From Thermoleophilia bacterium (GTDB taxonomy: Bacteria; Actinomycetota; Thermoleophilia; Miltoncostaeales; Miltoncostaeaceae): a DNA stretch of 49,145 bases. Positions 474 through 10,501 of this stretch are shown one piece after another; the stretch's first letter is position 1; each line of letters starts with the position of its first letter. A program made the position numbers and the translations under genes. The stretch spans positions 1-49,145 of the forward strand of contig JAGQUM010000009.1 of NCBI GenBank assembly GCA_020438485.1, given 5' to 3'. The notes beneath the pieces were generated by a model. It did no database searches and had not been told where the DNA came from. It saw only the letters and a list, made by a program, of their open reading frames with translations.

Positions 474-1373
474 TCAGCGGCGGTTGAGTCCCTCGGTGGT
501 CGCGGCGCCCACGACGGCGTCGGCGACCGCGCCCGCGTGCCCGTCCGCCAGCGGCGAGCCGCCCGCGACGCCGGCCGCGGCGTCCAGCACGGCGGGCGTC
601 ACCTTGGTCGCCCGGCAGTCCAGCAGCCCGCGCAGGATGCCCGGCGCGGCCGCCACGTCGTCGCCACCGCCGGCCTTCGCGGCCTCCTCCTGAGTCAACA
701 CGGGGATGTCGAGGCGCGACTCGAGGCCGGTCTTCACGGCGGCCATCCGGTCGGGGGCCATGTCGTGCAGGTACACGGCCGCGAAGACCGAGCTGCAGAG
801 CGCGACGGTGTTGACGATCTCGTCGACGTCCTTCGCGTCGACCGGCAGCGGGAACGCGTCGATGCCGGCCAGCGACCGCATGGCGAACGCCTTGGCCTCG
901 CCGGCGGGCAGCGCGGCCTCGGCGCCGATGTCGCCCAAGTCCATGACGCGGGACCCGTCGGTGACCACCATCACGGAGTTGCCCTTGATCGTGTAGTCCC
1001 AGGCCTGGTCGAAGTCGTCGTGGATGGCCATGCACACGCGGGCGACGCCCGGGGTGTACGCCATCGCCAGGTCGTCGCGCGTCGTCAGTGACGTGCGGCT
1101 GCGCATGTCGAGCACGCCGCCGCGGTGCCCGTCGAGCGCCCGGCCCTCGGGGTCCACCGTCACGCCCTCCACGCCGGCCACGGCGTCGACGACCCGCTGC
1201 GGGTCCGCGGCGGTGACGGTGTAGTCGCGCACCATGCGCTTCTCGTTGTAACTGGCCACGCTCGTGTTGCCCACGCGCCCGCCGGCACCCTCGATGGCCT
1301 GTACCACGGCGCCGAACACGCCGGGCGCGTTCGGCGAGACGGCGCGGACGACAAGGCTCTGGGATTCGGGCAT
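474..1373 (-). CDS. ACT-domain/malic-enzyme-like protein lacking the NAD-binding domain
   Basis: This protein has 299 residues. Residues 1-80 look like an ACT ligand-binding domain. Residues 100-225 match the N-terminal catalytic domain of bacterial malic enzymes (AYTPGVA with Tyr106, TDGSRVMDLGDIGAEAALP, GEAKA with Lys161, AGIDAFP). At IPVL (223-226), where malic enzymes continue with an Asp-rich metal site and a Rossmann domain of about 200 residues, the chain passes within 20 residues to PGILRGLLDCRA (244-255), which resembles the normal C-terminal tail. The usual LED metal motif reads LHD. It is therefore unlikely to be an active malic enzyme; a regulatory or ligand-binding role is possible. 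A start at ATG 1373 is supported by AGAGG five bases upstream. Confidence 0.75.
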   Translation of the reverse strand: MPESQSLVVRAVSPNAPGVFGAVVQAIEGAGGRVGNTSVASYNEKRMVRDYTVTAADPQRVVDAVAGVEGVTVDPEGRALDGHRGGVLDMRSRTSLTTRDDLAMAYTPGVARVCMAIHDDFDQAWDYTIKGNSVMVVTDGSRVMDLGDIGAEAALPAGEAKAFAMRSLAGIDAFPLPVDAKDVDEIVNTVALCSSVFAAVYLHDMAPDRMAAVKTGLESRLDIPVLTQEEAAKAGGGDDVAAAPGILRGLLDCRATKVTPAVLDAAAGVAGGSPLADGHAGAVADAVVGAATTEGLNRR

Positions 1374-1412
1374 GGCTACCTCTTGGGGACGGTTTCCCGG
1401 GGTCGGCCCCCG

Positions 1413-2217: not shown

Positions 2218-3174
2218 GTGAGGGTTCTGGTCACCGGCGCCACGGGCTTCGTGGGGCACCACCTGGTGCGCGAGCTCCGTACGCGCGGAGCTCGCGTGCA
2301 CGCGCTCGTGCGCGATCCCGCCGTCGAGCCCGTGCCGGACGGGGCGCAGGCTCACGCCGCCGACGTCCGGGACCCCGCCGCGGTCGCGGCCGTCGTCGCG
2401 ACCGTCGCCCCCGAGGGCATCGCCCACCTCGCGGGGGCCGCGTCGGTGGGGGAGTCGTTCGGCCGTCCTCTCGCGACGTGGGACGTCAACCTCAATGGGA
2501 CGCTGGCCGTGCTGGAGGCTGCCCGCGCCGCGGCCCGTCCCCCCCGGGTGCTGGTGGTGACCAGCGGCGAGGTCTACGGCAGGGTGCCGCTGGAGGACCT
2601 GCCCGTCACCCACGAGACGCCGCTGCGGCCCGTGTCGCCCTACGGGGCGTCGAAGGCCGCGGCGGACCTCGCCGCCTTCCAGTACCACGACGGGTACGGG
2701 CTCGACGTTATGAGGGTGCGCTCGTTCAACCACTTCGGCCCCAACCAGGACCCCCGGTTCGTCATCCCCAGCATCGCGAAACAGCTTGCCGAGGCGGAGC
2801 GCGAGGGGGGCGACGGCCCGGTGGAGCTCCACGTCGGCAACGTGGAGACCCGGCGCGACTTCACGGATGTCCGCGACGTCGTGCGCGCCTACGCGTTGCT
2901 GCTGGAGCGCGGGCGGCCCGGCGAGCCGTACCTGGTCTGCACGGGTCGTTCGCTGTCGATCCGCGAGGTGATCGACGGCCTTGCCGCGCTGTGCACGCGC
3001 GAGGTGCGGGTGATGAGCGACCCCGGGCTGCGCCGCAGCGGCGAGCAGAGCGACCTATATGGTTCACCGGAACGCGTCCGTTCCGACACCGGCTGGACGC
3101 CCACCATCGCGCTCGAGCAAACGCTCGCCGACACGCTGGAGTGGTGGCGCGCACGACCCGACACGGAGACATGA
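2218..3174 (+). CDS. rmd: GDP-6-deoxy-D-mannose (GDP-4-keto-6-deoxymannose) reductase
   Basis: This is a 318-residue short-chain (extended SDR) protein. A nucleotide-binding TGATGFVG lies at residues 6-13, Ser116 in VVTSGEVYG, and the catalytic pair Tyr142/Lys146 in SPYGASK. FNHFGPNQDPRFV and the late RRSGEQSDLYG region resemble Rmd/Fcl-type reductases that convert GDP-4-keto-6-deoxymannose to GDP-D-rhamnose. The next gene encodes the dehydratase that makes that substrate; its ATG follows this stop codon with no gap. The GTG at 2218 was chosen because it begins directly at the first beta strand (VRVLVTG) and lies six bases after a TACGGT -10 box. The stereochemistry of the product is inferred from family resemblance. 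Confidence 0.85.
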   Translation: MRVLVTGATGFVGHHLVRELRTRGARVHALVRDPAVEPVPDGAQAHAADVRDPAAVAAVVATVAPEGIAHLAGAASVGESFGRPLATWDVNLNGTLAVLEAARAAARPPRVLVVTSGEVYGRVPLEDLPVTHETPLRPVSPYGASKAAADLAAFQYHDGYGLDVMRVRSFNHFGPNQDPRFVIPSIAKQLAEAEREGGDGPVELHVGNVETRRDFTDVRDVVRAYALLLERGRPGEPYLVCTGRSLSIREVIDGLAALCTREVRVMSDPGLRRSGEQSDLYGSPERVRSDTGWTPTIALEQTLADTLEWWRARPDTET

Positions 3175-4149
<975 letters not shown>

Positions 4150-4163
4150 GCCCCCGACCGCCG

Positions 4164-6326
4164 GTGGTGACCGAGCCGGGCGGAGCCGGGACCGTCCCGC
4201 CCGCCGGAGAGGCCCGTCGGCTGGTCTCGCGGGCCATGGGAGTGCCCGGCGCAGCATGGGTCGTGTCGGGCCTCGCCTACCTCGCCTACACGCTGTACGT
4301 GTTCTGGCCCGTGCCGACGGCGCCGGGGCGGTGGCTCATCGGTGGTCCCGGGGACGCGACCGGTGAGCTCGCCCTCACCTACTACCGCGACGCGGCGGGC
4401 GCGTGGCCGCTCTCCGACCAGCTTACGCGCCTGGAGAACTACCCGTTCGGGCTTCCATTGCCGGGTGCGGTCAGCATCGGCCAGCTGGCCGTCGAGGGGC
4501 CGCTGCAGCTGATCTCGCTGGCCACCGGCGGGAACGAGGTGCTGGCGTACAACGTGATGATGATGCTCGCGATGGTCGCCACGCCCATGGCGGCCTTCGC
4601 GCTGGTGCGGTTCGTGGTCGGCGGCTCCTGGGCGCCGCTGCTGGCGGGGTTCGCGTACGGGTTCGCGCCGTGGCACATCATCCGCGCGGGGGGTCACCTG
4701 GCCCTCAGCCACATCGAATGGTTGCCGCTGATCGCCCTCGGGCTGCTGTGGCTGCTGGAGGGCGGCGGCGGCCGTGCCTGGGCCCTCACGGCCGTGGCGG
4801 TGGCCATGAACGCGTACACCAACTCGTACTTCACCTTGATGGCGGGGGCGATGCTGGTGGCGTTCGTGTGCGCCGACGCGTTCATCGGGTGGCGCACGCG
4901 CGCCGGGCTGGGACCGGTGGTGCGCCGGGTCGGGGGCCTCACGGCGATCCTCACGGTGACGTATCTGCCCCAGGTGCTGTGGCTTGCCACAAAGCGCGGC
5001 GCAGTGGACGACAGCCTGGCCGGCACGCGCGGGGCGAGCGACCTCCAGGTGTACGGCGCGCGCTGGTACGATTGGCTCCTGCCCCAGTGGGACCACCCGC
5101 TGATGGGGTCCGGGTACCCGGCGTTCCGGGACCGGCATCTGCATCTGTCGAACCACACCGAGAGCACGCTCTACGTCGGCGTCGTCGTGCTTGTGCTGGT
5201 CGCCGCGGGCGTCGCCGTGGTCTGGGGGGACCGCCTCGTCACCCGCCGCAGCCGCGCCGCGGTGTTCGCCGGGGCGATGGTGGTGGTCGGCGTGGTCACC
5301 GCGCTTCCCGGGCGCGTGTCACTGCTGGGGGTGGGGATCCCCACGCCCCCGGAGTGGATCCACGCGTTGTTCCCTTACTGGAGGGTCTACTCCCGGTTGT
5401 ACGTCGTCGTCGCCCTGGGGCTCGCCGTGCTGGCGGGCATCGGCATCGCGGCGCTCCTGGCGCGCCGGCGACCGGCGGTGTCCGCGGCGCTCGGCGTGCT
5501 CATCGCGGCCGCGCTCGCTTCGGACTTCTCGACCACGAGCACCCGGTGGGACTCCAGGCCCCCGCCGGTATACGGTGTGCTGCGTGGCCAGAGCCCCGGT
5601 GCGCGTGTGGAGTACCCGATCGTTTCCGCGTACGACCCCGCGCATTTTCGCTATATCGCGTACACGGAGGCCGCGGGTCGTCCGTTGATGAACGGCGGCA
5701 AGCCCGCGTCCTGGCAGGGTGGGTTGGACGGTCGCCTTCAGGACCCGTCTCGGCCCTGGGTGCTGCCGCTGCTGGCGCGGCTGGGCGTGCGGTGGGTGGT
5801 GGTGCACGACGACGCGTACCGGGCGCAGGGCGCGGCGCCGCCCCCCCTCCCGGCGGGGGCCCGCGAGGTGTACAGGGACGGCGCGTCGGCGCTGTGGCGT
5901 GTGCGGGCGGCAGCTCCGTCGGTGGTCGTCGTGCCCGCCGACAACTGGATGGACGCCGAGCCCCGGCCGGGGGGGTGGAGCCAGTGGCTGGGCTCCCGCG
6001 ATGGCGCGATGCTCGTGATGAACGACCTCGGTCGCCCCGCGCGCACCACCGTCACGACGACGCTCGGCAGCTTCGCGCGGCCGCGACGGTTCGCGTTCCG
6101 TGCGGGCGGCCGCACGATCTGGCGGGGCATCGTCCCCACCAGCCCCACCCGGGTGTCGTTCGCGTTCGTGGCGCCGCCCGGCACCTCCCGCATCGCGATG
6201 CAGTCACCGACGGCCCCGACGCGCATCGGGGACGTCACGTCCACGCCGGACCCCCGCACCGTCACCATCCAGATCGGTGCCGTCACGGTTCGCACCCCCG
6301 GCCAACCGGCGTTCACGCTGGGATGA
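4164..6326 (+). CDS. Large multi-pass membrane protein, GT-C-like glycosyltransferase
   Basis: This protein has about 720 residues and ten or more hydrophobic segments in its first two thirds, then a soluble C-terminal domain of roughly 200 residues (from about VWRVRAAAPSVV). The acidic GGPGDATGE loop just after the first membrane segment, and the NAYTNSYFTLMAG segment, resemble membrane polyprenyl-phosphate-sugar glycosyltransferases. The product may elongate or decorate the glycan on the outer face of the membrane. The start is uncertain: GTG 4164 or 4167, or ATG 4236; none has a good ribosome site. It is a distant relative of the gene at 10547. The exact donor and acceptor are unknown. Confidence 0.75.
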   Translation: MVTEPGGAGTVPPAGEARRLVSRAMGVPGAAWVVSGLAYLAYTLYVFWPVPTAPGRWLIGGPGDATGELALTYYRDAAGAWPLSDQLTRLENYPFGLPLPGAVSIGQLAVEGPLQLISLATGGNEVLAYNVMMMLAMVATPMAAFALVRFVVGGSWAPLLAGFAYGFAPWHIIRAGGHLALSHIEWLPLIALGLLWLLEGGGGRAWALTAVAVAMNAYTNSYFTLMAGAMLVAFVCADAFIGWRTRAGLGPVVRRVGGLTAILTVTYLPQVLWLATKRGAVDDSLAGTRGASDLQVYGARWYDWLLPQWDHPLMGSGYPAFRDRHLHLSNHTESTLYVGVVVLVLVAAGVAVVWGDRLVTRRSRAAVFAGAMVVVGVVTALPGRVSLLGVGIPTPPEWIHALFPYWRVYSRLYVVVALGLAVLAGIGIAALLARRRPAVSAALGVLIAAALASDFSTTSTRWDSRPPPVYGVLRGQSPGARVEYPIVSAYDPAHFRYIAYTEAAGRPLMNGGKPASWQGGLDGRLQDPSRPWVLPLLARLGVRWVVVHDDAYRAQGAAPPPLPAGAREVYRDGASALWRVRAAAPSVVVVPADNWMDAEPRPGGWSQWLGSRDGAMLVMNDLGRPARTTVTTTLGSFARPRRFAFRAGGRTIWRGIVPTSPTRVSFAFVAPPGTSRIAMQSPTAPTRIGDVTSTPDPRTVTIQIGAVTVRTPGQPAFTLG

Positions 6327-7354
6327 CCGCGCACCCCGACATCGTCTCCGGCCGGGTCTCGGTGGTGGTGGTGACATACCGCTGCGCAGGGATCGTGGGC
6401 CGCACACTCGACTCGCTGCGCGAACAGGCCTGGCCCGACGTCGAGGTTGTCGTCGTGGACAACGCGTCCGACGACGGCACGGTGGCACTGGTCCGCGACC
6501 GGCTCCCCGAGGCTGACGTGCACGAACTCGCCCGCAACCTCGGGTTTGCCGAGGCCAACAACGTCGGCGTGGCCGCGTCCAGCGGCGAGTTCGTCTTCAT
6601 GCTGAACCCCGACGCGTGGGTCGAACCGGACACGATCGGCCGTCTCGTGGACGCGTTGGGCGACCCCGGCGTGGGAGTGGTGGGCGGCACGGTGCGCCAC
6701 GAGGACGGCAGCGTGCAGGAGCGCGGGAACCTGCTGGACCGCACGGGGTTTCCGCTTCCCCGGCGCGGCGACGTGGCACCGCTGGAGCGTGACACGTTCT
6801 ACGTCGGCGGGTGCGCCCTGATGCTGCGGCGCTCGGACTGGGACCGGGCCGGAGGCCTCGACGGGCGCCTGTTCATGTTCTGCGAGGAGGTGGATCTGTG
6901 CTGGCGGATCCAGCTCCTCGACCGTGACGTTGCCGTAGTGCGTGACGCGGTCGTCTGGCACGTCGGCGGCGCCACGCTGGCCGGGGGCTATGCCAGCGGC
7001 GGGCGTCACCGCACATCCGCGCGGCGCATCTACCTGCGCGAGCGCAACACGCTGGCGATGGTGCTCGCGAACGCGCCCGTACGCGCGCTGGGCTGGGTCG
7101 CCCTGGGCTGGCTGGGGAACGTCGCCGAGGCCATGGTGTTCCTGGTCCGCGGCGAGTGGCGGATCTCGCTGCAGTACCCGCGCGCGTTGGCGTGGAACGT
7201 GGCACATCTGCCGTCCACGCTGGCCCGCCGGCGTCGCGTGGCGGCGTCGCGCGTGCGTCCCCATCGGGCGGTCCGCGGGTGGGCGCGGGGCAGCGCGAAG
7301 CTGGCGCTGCTGCGGTCCACAGGCGGTCTGCCCACCACCCGAGGTCGCGGATGA
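6323..7354 (+). CDS. GT2-family glycosyltransferase (rhamnosyltransferase-like)
   Basis: This 343-residue protein is a cytoplasmic, inverting GT-A glycosyltransferase. The N-terminal VSVVVVTYR strand is followed by VDNASDDGT (45-53), the acidic NPDAWVEPD (95-103) in place of the DxD, and EEVDLCWR (188-195), which carries the base region. RNLGFAEANNVG is typical of the rhamnosyltransferase-like branch. The C-terminal 130 residues contain hydrophobic stretches and basic residues that probably hold it at the membrane. ATG 6323 overlaps the upstream stop as ATGA, so it is translationally coupled to the membrane gene. With rmd and gmd in the operon, GDP-D-rhamnose is a plausible donor, but this is inference. 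Confidence 0.88.
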   Translation: MTAHPDIVSGRVSVVVVTYRCAGIVGRTLDSLREQAWPDVEVVVVDNASDDGTVALVRDRLPEADVHELARNLGFAEANNVGVAASSGEFVFMLNPDAWVEPDTIGRLVDALGDPGVGVVGGTVRHEDGSVQERGNLLDRTGFPLPRRGDVAPLERDTFYVGGCALMLRRSDWDRAGGLDGRLFMFCEEVDLCWRIQLLDRDVAVVRDAVVWHVGGATLAGGYASGGRHRTSARRIYLRERNTLAMVLANAPVRALGWVALGWLGNVAEAMVFLVRGEWRISLQYPRALAWNVAHLPSTLARRRRVAASRVRPHRAVRGWARGSAKLALLRSTGGLPTTRGRG

Positions 7355-8652
7355 GCATGCTCGGCAAGGTTCCCGGCATGGTGCGCTGGGCGATGGCCGC
7401 CGCCGGGGCCATGGTGGTGGCGACGGTGGTGAGCAACGCCGCCAACTACGCGTACAGCTTGGTCATGAGCCGGATGCTGGGCCCGGAGCGGTTCGGGGAG
7501 TTCACCGCGCTGCTCGGCGTGCTGATGATCCTGTCGATCGCCACCCAGCTGGTGCAGACGGTGGTGGCGCGCTACGTCACCGAGCTGCGTTCCGGCCGCG
7601 ACCCCGGCTCCGTCCCGGCCTTCGTCAACCGCCTCGCCCGGGTGATGGCCGTCGTCGGCCTGGCCGCGTTCGTGGTCAGCGTACCCCTCGCCTGGCCCGT
7701 GGCCGCCGCGCTGCAGATCGACCACATCGCTCCCGTCGTCGCGACCATGTCCGCGCTGGTCCTGGGTTTCGTCGTGCCCGTCGCCTGGGGGCGCTTCCAG
7801 GGCGAGCAGGCGTTCTGGCGGCTGGGCACCAGCATGGTGGTTCTCAATCTGGCGCGGGTGGCGGTGGGCGTCGCGCTCGTCGCCGTGGGGTTCGGGGTGT
7901 CGGGCGCGATCGCCGCCACCACCATTGCGACGGTCTTCGTGGCGGCCATGGTTCTGCCCGCGCTGCGCGCCCCGTCGTCGCCCTCGGCCGGTGCGGGCCC
8001 CGAACTCGCGACGCTGGCGCGGTTCGCGTTGCCCACGCTCGGCGCCCTCGTGGCGTGGGCCATGCTCACGAACTTCGATGTGGTCATCGTCAAGGCCATG
8101 GCCGTCCCGGCGGACGCCGGGTATTACGGGGCGGCGGCCACGGTCGGCAAGATCGCGCTGTTCCTGCCCACCGCCCTTGGGCTGGTGATCCTGCCGAAGG
8201 GCGCGGCACGTCATCACGCCGGGGTCGACTCGCGCGGCATCCTGCGCCGCACCGGTCAGGCGCTCGTGGTGGTGAGCGGCGCCCTCACGGCGATCTGCGC
8301 GCTGTGGGGCGACCGCGTCGTCCACCTGATGTTCACGTCCGAGTACGCGCCGGCAGCCGACCTGCTGGTGCCGATCGTCGTCGCCATGTCGTGCTTCGCG
8401 TTGGCGAACGTGATGCTGTTCTACTACCTCGGGGTGGGGCGGACCACCTTCAGCGTGGTGCTGATCGTGGCGATGGTGTTCCAGATCGCGCTGTTGCTGC
8501 TGGTGGCCTCGAGTCCGAAAGAGGCGGCGCTGGTCCAGATGGCCGTCGGCATCGGCATCGTGGCCGCCAACGAGGCCCTCTACGTGCCGCTCCTGCGGCC
8601 GCTTCCGAAGGCGCGGCGGGCCGGTGGCTCCGGGGACCCGCCGCCCGCCTAG
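7351..8652 (+). CDS. Wzx-type oligosaccharide flippase (MOP superfamily)
   Basis: This 433-residue protein has about 12 hydrophobic segments and no large soluble domain. The N-terminal half contains LVMSRMLGPERFGEFTALL, the signature of polysaccharide flippases related to Wzx and MurJ, which move lipid-linked oligosaccharides across the membrane. ATG 7351 overlaps the preceding GT2 stop (ATGA). It closes the rmd operon, so the likely cargo is the rhamnose-containing unit assembled by the upstream genes. The TAG stop shares its bases with the stop of the convergent methyltransferase gene. A polymerase (Wzy) is not obvious, although one of the large membrane proteins could serve. Confidence 0.85.
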   Translation: MSMLGKVPGMVRWAMAAAGAMVVATVVSNAANYAYSLVMSRMLGPERFGEFTALLGVLMILSIATQLVQTVVARYVTELRSGRDPGSVPAFVNRLARVMAVVGLAAFVVSVPLAWPVAAALQIDHIAPVVATMSALVLGFVVPVAWGRFQGEQAFWRLGTSMVVLNLARVAVGVALVAVGFGVSGAIAATTIATVFVAAMVLPALRAPSSPSAGAGPELATLARFALPTLGALVAWAMLTNFDVVIVKAMAVPADAGYYGAAATVGKIALFLPTALGLVILPKGAARHHAGVDSRGILRRTGQALVVVSGALTAICALWGDRVVHLMFTSEYAPAADLLVPIVVAMSCFALANVMLFYYLGVGRTTFSVVLIVAMVFQIALLLLVASSPKEAALVQMAVGIGIVAANEALYVPLLRPLPKARRAGGSGDPPPA

Positions 8653-9302
8653 GCCAGACGGGCCAAGAACACCAGTTGCGACGCCAGCAGCCCGGGCCGA
8701 AGGCGCGTGACCGCCATGCCGGGCCGCCCCACGGCGTACGACGCGGGGCCGATGTGTCGCTCGGCCTCCACGCGTAAACCGGCCCGCTCCAGCATCTCCC
8801 GCGCCGTCGCCCGGGTAAAGAACCGCAGGTGGGTGTCGTCGAAGATCCCCGTGCGCTCGTAACGCCACACGCCGCGCAGCAGCCGCAGGCGCGCCAGCGC
8901 GTACGCGATGTTGGGCAGCGACACGACCACCGACCCGCCGGGCGTCAGCAGGCCGACCAGGTCGCGCAGGACGGCGTCGGGCTCCGGGGTGTGCTCGAGC
9001 ACGTCGGCCAGAAGGACCTGGTCGTACGGGCCCTTGTCCGCGACGTCGCCCGCGTCGATCAGGGCCCGGACGTCGCCCTCCAGGACGTCCAGCCCCAGCG
9101 CGCGCGCCCGCACGCACGAGTCGGGATCGGGTTCGAGCGCCACCACTGAGGCCCCTTTTCGGTCGCGGGCGATCCCCGACAGGTAGCCGCCGGCTGCTCC
9201 CACGTCCAGGAGCCGGGCGCCCGGTTGCACCAGGTCGATCAGGGCCTCGTGCGTGCCGTAGCCGCGGCCGGAGCGCAGGCGATAACGGGGCTCGGGCGTC
9301 AC
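8649..9302 (-). CDS. Class I SAM-dependent methyltransferase
   Basis: This protein has 217 residues. Motif I is LLDVGAAGGY (31-40), the acidic residue that binds the SAM ribose is Glu57 in ALEPD, and LADVLEHTPEP (98-108) with the TPGGSVVVSLPN strand completes the methyltransferase fold. It resembles UbiE/COQ5-type (Methyltransf_11/23) enzymes common in glycan loci, so O-methylation of a sugar or processing of a glycan intermediate is likely. The GTG at 9302 overlaps the upstream GT4 stop as GTGA. Its stop shares the palindrome CTAG with the convergent flippase gene. Confidence 0.85.
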   Translation of the reverse strand: MTPEPRYRLRSGRGYGTHEALIDLVQPGARLLDVGAAGGYLSGIARDRKGASVVALEPDPDSCVRARALGLDVLEGDVRALIDAGDVADKGPYDQVLLADVLEHTPEPDAVLRDLVGLLTPGGSVVVSLPNIAYALARLRLLRGVWRYERTGIFDDTHLRFFTRATAREMLERAGLRVEAERHIGPASYAVGRPGMAVTRLRPGLLASQLVFLARLA

Positions 9303-10501
9303 GGGCAGACCTCTCGGTAGACGTCCGCCGTGCGACGCGCGACCGAGGGCAGGCTGGCGGCGTCGGCGGCGCGGCGGGACGCGTTTCGTAGCCGCGCGTT
9401 CGCGGCGGGGGCAAGGGCGTCGGCGATCACGCGGGCCGCGTCATCCGGATCGTGCGCGAACACCGCGCCGGGATCCGGCGCGAGGGATCCGAGCGCGCGC
9501 GACACGGCGACCGGCAGGCCGTACGCCAGCGCAAAGCCCATGGGGCCCGACGCGCCCAGCGCCTCGCGATACGGCAGCACCATGAGGTCGGCGGCCGCCA
9601 GGTACCCGGCGGCCTCGTCGTCGTCGACGAAGCCTCGCCAGTCGATGCCGCCGACGTCCTCGGCGGAGCGCTGCAGGTCGGCGTACGCGCGTTCGTACTC
9701 GGGTGTGCCACCCAGTCGCGGGTGGCGTCCCCCCGCGACCACCAGCGTCGCGTCCGGCAGGCGGCGCCGCACGCCACGCCACGCCTCCAGCAACAGCGGC
9801 AGATCCTTGTATCCGGTGACGAAACCGAAGAACAGCGCAACAGGGCCGTTCATTCCCCTGCGGGTGCGCTCGCGGTCGCGGTCGCGTGGGCGCGGGGAGG
9901 GCACGAGGAGGGGCACCACCCGGATGCGGTCCGGGTCGATGCCGTACTGGTCCACCAGCCGATCGCGGAACACGTCGCCGTGCACGATGGCGAGGTCGCC
10001 CGCCGTGGCTGCCGAGCCGATGAAGTGGCGCAGCGCGGCTCGAATCGCGCGGGGAGGGAGGCGCGAGCCGTTGTGGCGCGCGAACGCAGCGTCGACGTCG
10101 GCGAGGTCGGCGACGCCGTGCACCGAGACCACCGTGGCGCACCGGCGGCCGATGCGGCGCACGACGGGCGCGAACAGCGCGGCGCCGGCAGGCCCCCCGT
10201 AGAGGAACACCTCGTGCTGGGCGTGGCACACCTGGGGGCGCGTGCGGGTGACCGACCCCGGCGCCAAGGCGAAACGCGGCCCCCCGCTCCAACGGCGCAG
10301 CACGGGCACGCCGTCCGCGGCCCACGCGACGCCGGGGGCGGCCGGGTCCGCCTGCGCCACGACCGCCTGGCGCGTGACCCCGGCCTCGGCCAGCGCGGGG
10401 ATGAGCATGGCGGCGTACGCCGGTACGCCCGGGGACTGCGCGCCCGGAACCGGGTACGGCGTGAGGTGCGCGACGGACGGGGTGGCGGGGGCGGGGCTCA
10501 T
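9299..10501 (-). CDS. GT4-family glycosyltransferase
   Basis: This 400-residue protein has the two-domain GT-B layout. The N-terminal domain contains SVAHLTPYPVPGAQSPGVP and an HAQHEVFLYGG segment. The C-terminal domain opens at VALFFGFVTGYKDLPLLLEA, contains TLVVAGGRHP, and ends in the nucleotide-sugar region VLPYREALGASGPMGFALAYG. These enzymes transfer a sugar with retention of configuration in the cytoplasm. The DRDRERTRRG stretch is an unusually charged linker between the domains. The ATG at 10501 lies nine bases after a minus-strand TAGAGT box, implying a leaderless transcript. Confidence 0.85.
   Translation of the reverse strand: MSPAPATPSVAHLTPYPVPGAQSPGVPAYAAMLIPALAEAGVTRQAVVAQADPAAPGVAWAADGVPVLRRWSGGPRFALAPGSVTRTRPQVCHAQHEVFLYGGPAGAALFAPVVRRIGRRCATVVSVHGVADLADVDAAFARHNGSRLPPRAIRAALRHFIGSAATAGDLAIVHGDVFRDRLVDQYGIDPDRIRVVPLLVPSPRPRDRDRERTRRGMNGPVALFFGFVTGYKDLPLLLEAWRGVRRRLPDATLVVAGGRHPRLGGTPEYERAYADLQRSAEDVGGIDWRGFVDDDEAAGYLAAADLMVLPYREALGASGPMGFALAYGLPVAVSRALGSLAPDPGAVFAHDPDDAARVIADALAPAANARLRNASRRAADAASLPSVARRTADVYREVCP

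Follow-up and report, generated by a model that had tools for sequence, protein, structure and literature searches.

A malic enzyme-like protein without an NAD-binding domain, putative tyrosine donor of a split malic enzyme in the Miltoncostaeaceae

The window, that is the whole stretch of 49,145 nucleotides analysed here, carries a gene whose product is probably the tyrosine-donating, catalytically dead and 'prozyme-like' subunit of an obligately heterodimeric malic enzyme. This gene belongs to lineage B, one of two paralogous malic enzyme lineages of the family. We consider it likely that a single malic enzyme active site has been split by degeneration of these paralogues, lineage A giving the Lys, metal and NAD sites and lineage B only the Tyr arm, with the NAD domain of the donor graded from full-length through shrunken to lost; with the same likelihood, and jointly with this reading, the graded series would be a natural record of an obligate heterodimer arising from an entangled homodimer. 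That A and B physically assemble, that the pair is active and that the ACT domain has a ligand is what we infer from sequences and predicted structures. The features of the gene, all on the minus strand, are as follows.

474-1373, minus strand: ACT and malic N-domain protein without NAD(P) domain (lineage B, putative Tyr donor), 299 aa; open reading frame, PF00390 only
1380-1386, minus strand: Shine-Dalgarno-like AAGAGGT, 5' of the ATG; from the sequence
1158-1361, minus strand: ACT-like domain, residues 5-72; AlphaFold2 model, Foldseek matches to NikR, SerB2 and AF1403, weak Pfam ACT matches in relatives
978-1124, minus strand: putative swapped (entangled) arm (GG to GN), residues 84-132, containing YTPGVARVCMAIH; bounds from the GK..GN(F) motifs of PMC11944484, low model confidence for residues 77-125
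1056-1058, minus strand: codon of the catalytic Tyr106; Tyr present in 29/29 lineage-B proteins
696-977, minus strand: malic N-terminal core (d2), residues 133-226; Pfam, AlphaFold2 model and Foldseek
891-893, minus strand: codon of Lys161; Lys present here, missing in 14/29 lineage-B proteins
765-767, minus strand: codon of His203, which replaces the metal/proton-donor Glu; Glu gone in 29/29 lineage-B proteins
651-695, minus strand: linker in place of the NAD-binding domain; alignment
477-644, minus strand: C-terminal tail, PGILRGLLDCRA.., kept from the full-length ancestor; comparison with solved malic enzymes and relatives

The gene is an open reading frame of 299 codons with an ATG start, and a chance truncation at the contig edge could be discarded because start and stop both lie within the contig. 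According to the preliminary description of this DNA, the Rossmann (NAD-binding) domain is missing and the C-terminal tail of the family is kept, and both the Pfam search and the alignments to solved enzymes agree with this: PF00390 is matched at 55.1 bits (cut-off 23.1) and nothing else above cut-off, PF03949 is absent from the Pfam search of the protein and, when searched in its own genome, matches the other malic gene only. The malic N-domain (..RLDIPVL) runs into a linker of 15-17 residues, TQEEAAKAGGGDDVAAA, and then into the tail, and residues ~240-270 match the C-terminal end of solved enzymes as a separate short match in all three of the alignments printed; the nearest solved proteins are small bacterial malic enzymes, with 5cee as the best. 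The net loss relative to full-length enzymes is ~150 residues rather than the ~200 first estimated, and the C-terminus is ~17 residues shorter than that of the full-length paralogue. Tyr106 and Lys161, described as kept, are both found in the alignment, and of the metal-site acidic residues, reported as altered, the Glu has become His203 and the region of the second metal Asp (HDDQHGTA in relatives) is missing, but the adjoining Asp204 is retained. A ribosome site and promoter had both been called normal; the former is recognisable as the AAGAGGT 5' of the ATG, whereas a simple sigma-70 scan found no promoter.

The proposal of an ACT domain in front is borne out by the AlphaFold2 monomer model (mean pLDDT 84.5), which comprises an ACT-like first domain with beta-alpha-beta-beta-alpha order, the malic core and C-terminal helices. 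Foldseek superposes this model best on 5cee and MaeB, with a gap where the NAD domain is missing, and also links it to the ACT-fold proteins NikR, SerB2 and AF1403. At the sequence level the domain is below Pfam detection in the window protein, and a near relative (L017) matches ACT_4/ACT with an E of ~1e-5, just under the cut-off. The models show ACT-like domains in both paralogues A and B. An arm with YTPGV between the GK and GN motifs is present in the sequence of the window protein, together with the malic fold found by Foldseek; the arm is of low confidence in the monomer models of both A and B, and its predicted swap rests on the structures of relatives. The model of the lineage-A protein of the window genome matches MaeB 6zn4 and 5cee at 48-49% identity, and the same dimer is therefore expected.

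Nearly every genome of the family that bears lineage B also encodes a second, full-length ACT-malic protein (lineage A), the two genes being unlinked; the window genome is among them, which settles the question of whether a full-length malic enzyme coexists there. We tabulated the catalytic residues of 34 A proteins, 29 B proteins covering the motif and, as an outgroup, 15 malic enzymes that belong to other families within the class. They are intact in all 15 outgroup proteins. All 34 A proteins have the Lys, the metal Glu and the Asp, and the 33 that cover them have the second Asp, the GxGxxG glycines and the substrate Asn residues intact; by contrast, all 34 have another residue in place of the Thr of YTPGVA, just 7/34 retain the motif Arg and the catalytic Tyr itself is missing from 6/34, the A protein of the window genome included. 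The replacements of Tyr occur in both genomes of genus g1, to which the window genome belongs (Thr), in both of g6 (Gly, Ala), in g5 (Gly) and in g11 (Ala), which by parsimony amounts to 4 changes of Tyr state, or 3 if g1 and g6 share one. In B, the Tyr motif YTPGVAR is essentially invariant (Tyr, Thr or Ser, and Arg each 29/29), whereas the metal Glu is kept by 0/29 (Ser, Thr, Ala or His stands in its place), the N421- and N467-type substrate Asn are kept in no protein, the Lys is retained in 15/29 and gone in 14/29, and the NAD sites are often lost.

All six Tyr-less genomes carry B too (frame-broken in G015), and PF00390 and PF03949 searches of the window genome, G001, G005, G006 and G011 detect A and B and nothing else. 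Unless A works without Tyr, none of these five genomes has a complete single-chain malic enzyme; that a further complete enzyme is encoded at some other locus was considered and set aside, none being found by these searches. G015, with its broken B gene in a fragmented draft, is a less clear case. In the window genome the full catalytic set is present in neither single chain. The earlier suggestion that the window protein is an inactive partner of a true malic enzyme fits well as to the partnership, since a full-length gene coexists, but this partner lacks the catalytic Tyr and is hardly 'true', so that the data point to the Tyr-donating half of a split site and not merely to an inactive partner. 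In most genera A retains the Tyr as YMPGVA and might still be functional as a homodimer. Several genomes of g9 have A and no B was seen in them (they are fragmented draft assemblies, e.g. G021); B may be dispensable in those genomes.

The distribution of constraint along the two proteins is reversed. In identity windows computed with a single genome from each genus, or two in some cases, the mean pairwise identity of the 12-residue segment MAYTPGVARVCM is 1.00 in B but 0.55 in A, with the outgroup at 0.88, and in the core windows after it A is well above or equal to B. The same is seen within genus g1, between the window genome and G001 (CAUJCX010000020.1, a metagenome-assembled actinomycetote), the other genome of the genus: A has 16 changed residues in the arm, of 42 compared, and 7 in the core, of 99 (p = 1.8e-5), the corresponding counts for B are 6 and 22, and the reversal of arm and core between A and B is significant (Fisher p = 7e-4). 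In the A protein of G001 the Pfam malic match starts only past the arm. The NG86 pN/pS of the window gene, 0.48 overall and 0.32 in the arm, is upper-biased by third positions that are 97% G or C, and codon-position counts and arm/core contrasts were therefore used instead.

Among the genera, the NAD domain of lineage B is reduced to graded extents. In several genera of the family the orthologue is ~470 aa long and its NAD domain can be recognised; it has ~440 aa in g9 and ~420-430 aa in g2 and g6, in which the NAD domain is shrunken and without a normal GxGxxG; in g1 it is gone. In the window and in G001, G025, G012, G011, G005, G014, G004 and G015, one pair of sugar-nucleotide genes recurs, with the malic gene upstream of it and in divergent orientation, and this shared position confirms orthology. 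Relatives with a full-length gene at this place had been named as the sign of a private deletion; the other genera of the family do carry a longer gene in this syntenic position, yet the deletion is common to both known g1 genomes and is the end point of a graded reduction. In a tree of 70 proteins, A and B each form one clade (SH-aLRT 100), and g1, g2 and g6 form one supported clade within B, so the loss of the Rossmann domain in g1 adjoins genera with shrunken domains; from this we infer the order of steps from a shrunken to a lost NAD domain. Among 299 genomes searched across the class, no lineage-B-like match above ~45% identity lay outside the family, the malic copies inspected outside the family are intact, and so are the two second-copy malic enzymes of other families that were checked. 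Within B, the protein of G005 (L024) sits on a very long branch (1.36) and its sites are strongly altered, the A protein of the same genus being without Tyr and most of the motif (GAQGAARV). G018 has one A gene and two diverged lineage-B genes (L065; G018:C4:126720-127457 and 131801-132610), ~5 kb apart on the same strand.

These observations can be brought together in the following scheme. After an ancient duplication in the family, A would have retained the body with the Lys, metal and NAD sites and B the Tyr arm, so that an A:B dimer would have one live site, made of the A body and the B Tyr, and one dead site, made of the B body and the A Tyr. The parts of the dead site would then decay: on the A side the Tyr arm would be lost repeatedly, and on the B side the Glu, the Asn, the Lys and GxGxxG would erode and the NAD domain, dispensable in a dead site and hence open to being discarded, would shrink in the sister genera and be fully removed in g1. 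B would retain the arm, the dimerisation core and the ACT domain, which may relay a signal, such as an amino acid, to the live site. Complementary residue loss and reversal of constraint are what would be expected if the A arm and the B body were free to decay, and as far as sequences go the complementary degeneration of A and B fits an A:B heterodimer as expected. As for the comparison with prozymes, B is without catalytic residues and is conserved alongside A; the Lys161 and Asp204 still kept by the B protein of the window genome count against the scheme. If the scheme is true, it would show with unusual clarity how complementary loss turns a homodimer with composite sites into an obligate heterodimer, the intermediates being alive in sister genera, and would make the swapped-arm architecture of bacterial malic enzymes directly testable. 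Annotation pipelines would label A a normal malic enzyme and B a fragment.

In metazoan-type malic enzymes Tyr and Lys are in one chain and the site is not split in this way. The malic enzyme of Candidatus Phytoplasma (5CEE), the hybrid enzyme MaeB (6ZN4/6ZNG) and the Entamoeba histolytica enzyme share with the window protein the malic N-domain fold, the YTPGVA arm and the Lys motif, and have a composite site made of two chains (PMC7902834, PMC11944484): in MaeB, Y52 is supplied by the opposing monomer (PMC7902834), and in the E. histolytica enzyme the arm between GK46 and GNF92 is swapped and places Tyr65' (YTPGV) at 2.8 A from Lys120 of the other chain (PMC11944484). The entangled arm has been described as inherent to prokaryotic malic enzymes, and its purpose was termed unclear in the same recent structure paper (PMC11944484). 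However, these enzymes form homodimers, or hexamers of dimers, in which the two sites are equal, whereas in A and B the halves are apparently on two paralogues, one of them without an NAD domain. The alpha and beta subunits of plant mitochondrial NAD-malic enzyme are likewise two diverged paralogues, proposed to form a heteromer after subfunctionalisation, but, unlike B, they are full-length and both are said to catalyse the same reaction (PMC7573226). The trypanosomatid pairs AdoMetDC/prozyme and DHSc/DHSp, in which an impaired enzyme is activated by a dead paralogue (PMC3663545, PMC5201418), offer a likeness from unrelated eukaryotic enzymes; their activation is described as allosteric, whereas donation of a catalytic residue is proposed for A and B. 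A literature search, subscription titles aside, returned no description of an inactive or heterodimeric bacterial malic enzyme of the A/B type.

The main rival to a donated Tyr is that A does without this residue, which would only assist the last (tautomerisation) step, and that B is a regulatory pseudoenzyme, binding A through the dimer surface and the ACT domain for allosteric control and giving no catalytic residue. The loss of metal and NAD sites in B and the presence of ACT-like domains on both proteins agree with it, the Tyr of MaeB has been assigned to the final tautomerisation step, and regulation of a malic enzyme by an inactive domain is known from MaeB itself, the PTA domain of which is catalytically dead and serves regulation (PMC7902834), although this domain, unlike B, is fused, of unrelated fold, senses acetyl-CoA and gives no catalytic residue. 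We nevertheless hold this rival to be rather unlikely, as it leaves unexplained why conservation in B is highest in the 12-residue Tyr segment, why only that arm decays in A and why A has lost its Arg and Thr.

That the window gene is a decaying pseudogene or the product of a recent private deletion is very improbable. In its favour are the faster evolution of B than A, the stop codon missing at this place in G001 and a frame break in the B gene of G015. Against it, G001 has the same Rossmann-less form at 75% identity, an orthologue such as the preliminary description had proposed to look for and the only record found in a scan of 84,980 species genomes. Moreover, the G+C content by codon position of the window gene is 0.74/0.51/0.97 and the differences between the two g1 genomes by codon position are 62/43/101, an excess at third positions (p = 4e-6), which together indicate that the frame is under coding constraint; the Tyr segment is invariant across the family and the synteny is conserved. 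A private deletion or pseudogene was rejected on these grounds, and the selection check that had been proposed, with this constraint and the arm/core reversal, upholds the view of an intact frame that is not in decay. As to the two lesions, the B gene of G001 (L055, G001:C20, ~6440 and below, minus strand) lacks a stop codon at the point where the window gene ends, and its frame, 583 codons from stop to stop, continues antisense across the neighbouring HD-domain-like gene, and that of G015 (L020, G015:C179) has a frame-shifting deletion just before the Tyr motif, in a fragmented draft in which A is without Tyr; both may be assembly faults or real lesions.

It is just as improbable that B is a free-standing malate or amino-acid sensor unconnected with catalysis by A, as might be read from an isolated gene with an ACT and a substrate-type domain and no NAD domain, for B has neither a signalling partner nor a conserved operon, all B proteins are without the substrate-binding Asn and metal Glu, and the decay of the A arm would be unexplained; the only thing that speaks for the ligand sensor initially put forward is the ACT domain, and this is present in both paralogues.

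The neighbouring genes were also considered as functional partners of the malic gene and were not retained, as the flanking sugar-nucleotide genes look unrelated. At 2-412 on the plus strand, convergent with the malic gene, the window has a gene for an HD-domain-like protein, the 5' end of which is cut by the contig start; this neighbour is also present in G001, and in none of the other genera examined was it detected next to a lineage-B gene. On the other side, the region 2218-9400 contains genes that, named from their translations only, encode an NDP-sugar reductase, a GDP-mannose dehydratase-like protein, a glycosyltransferase and a flippase-like protein, and is probably a surface polysaccharide cluster, the first two sugar-nucleotide genes of which are syntenic across the family.
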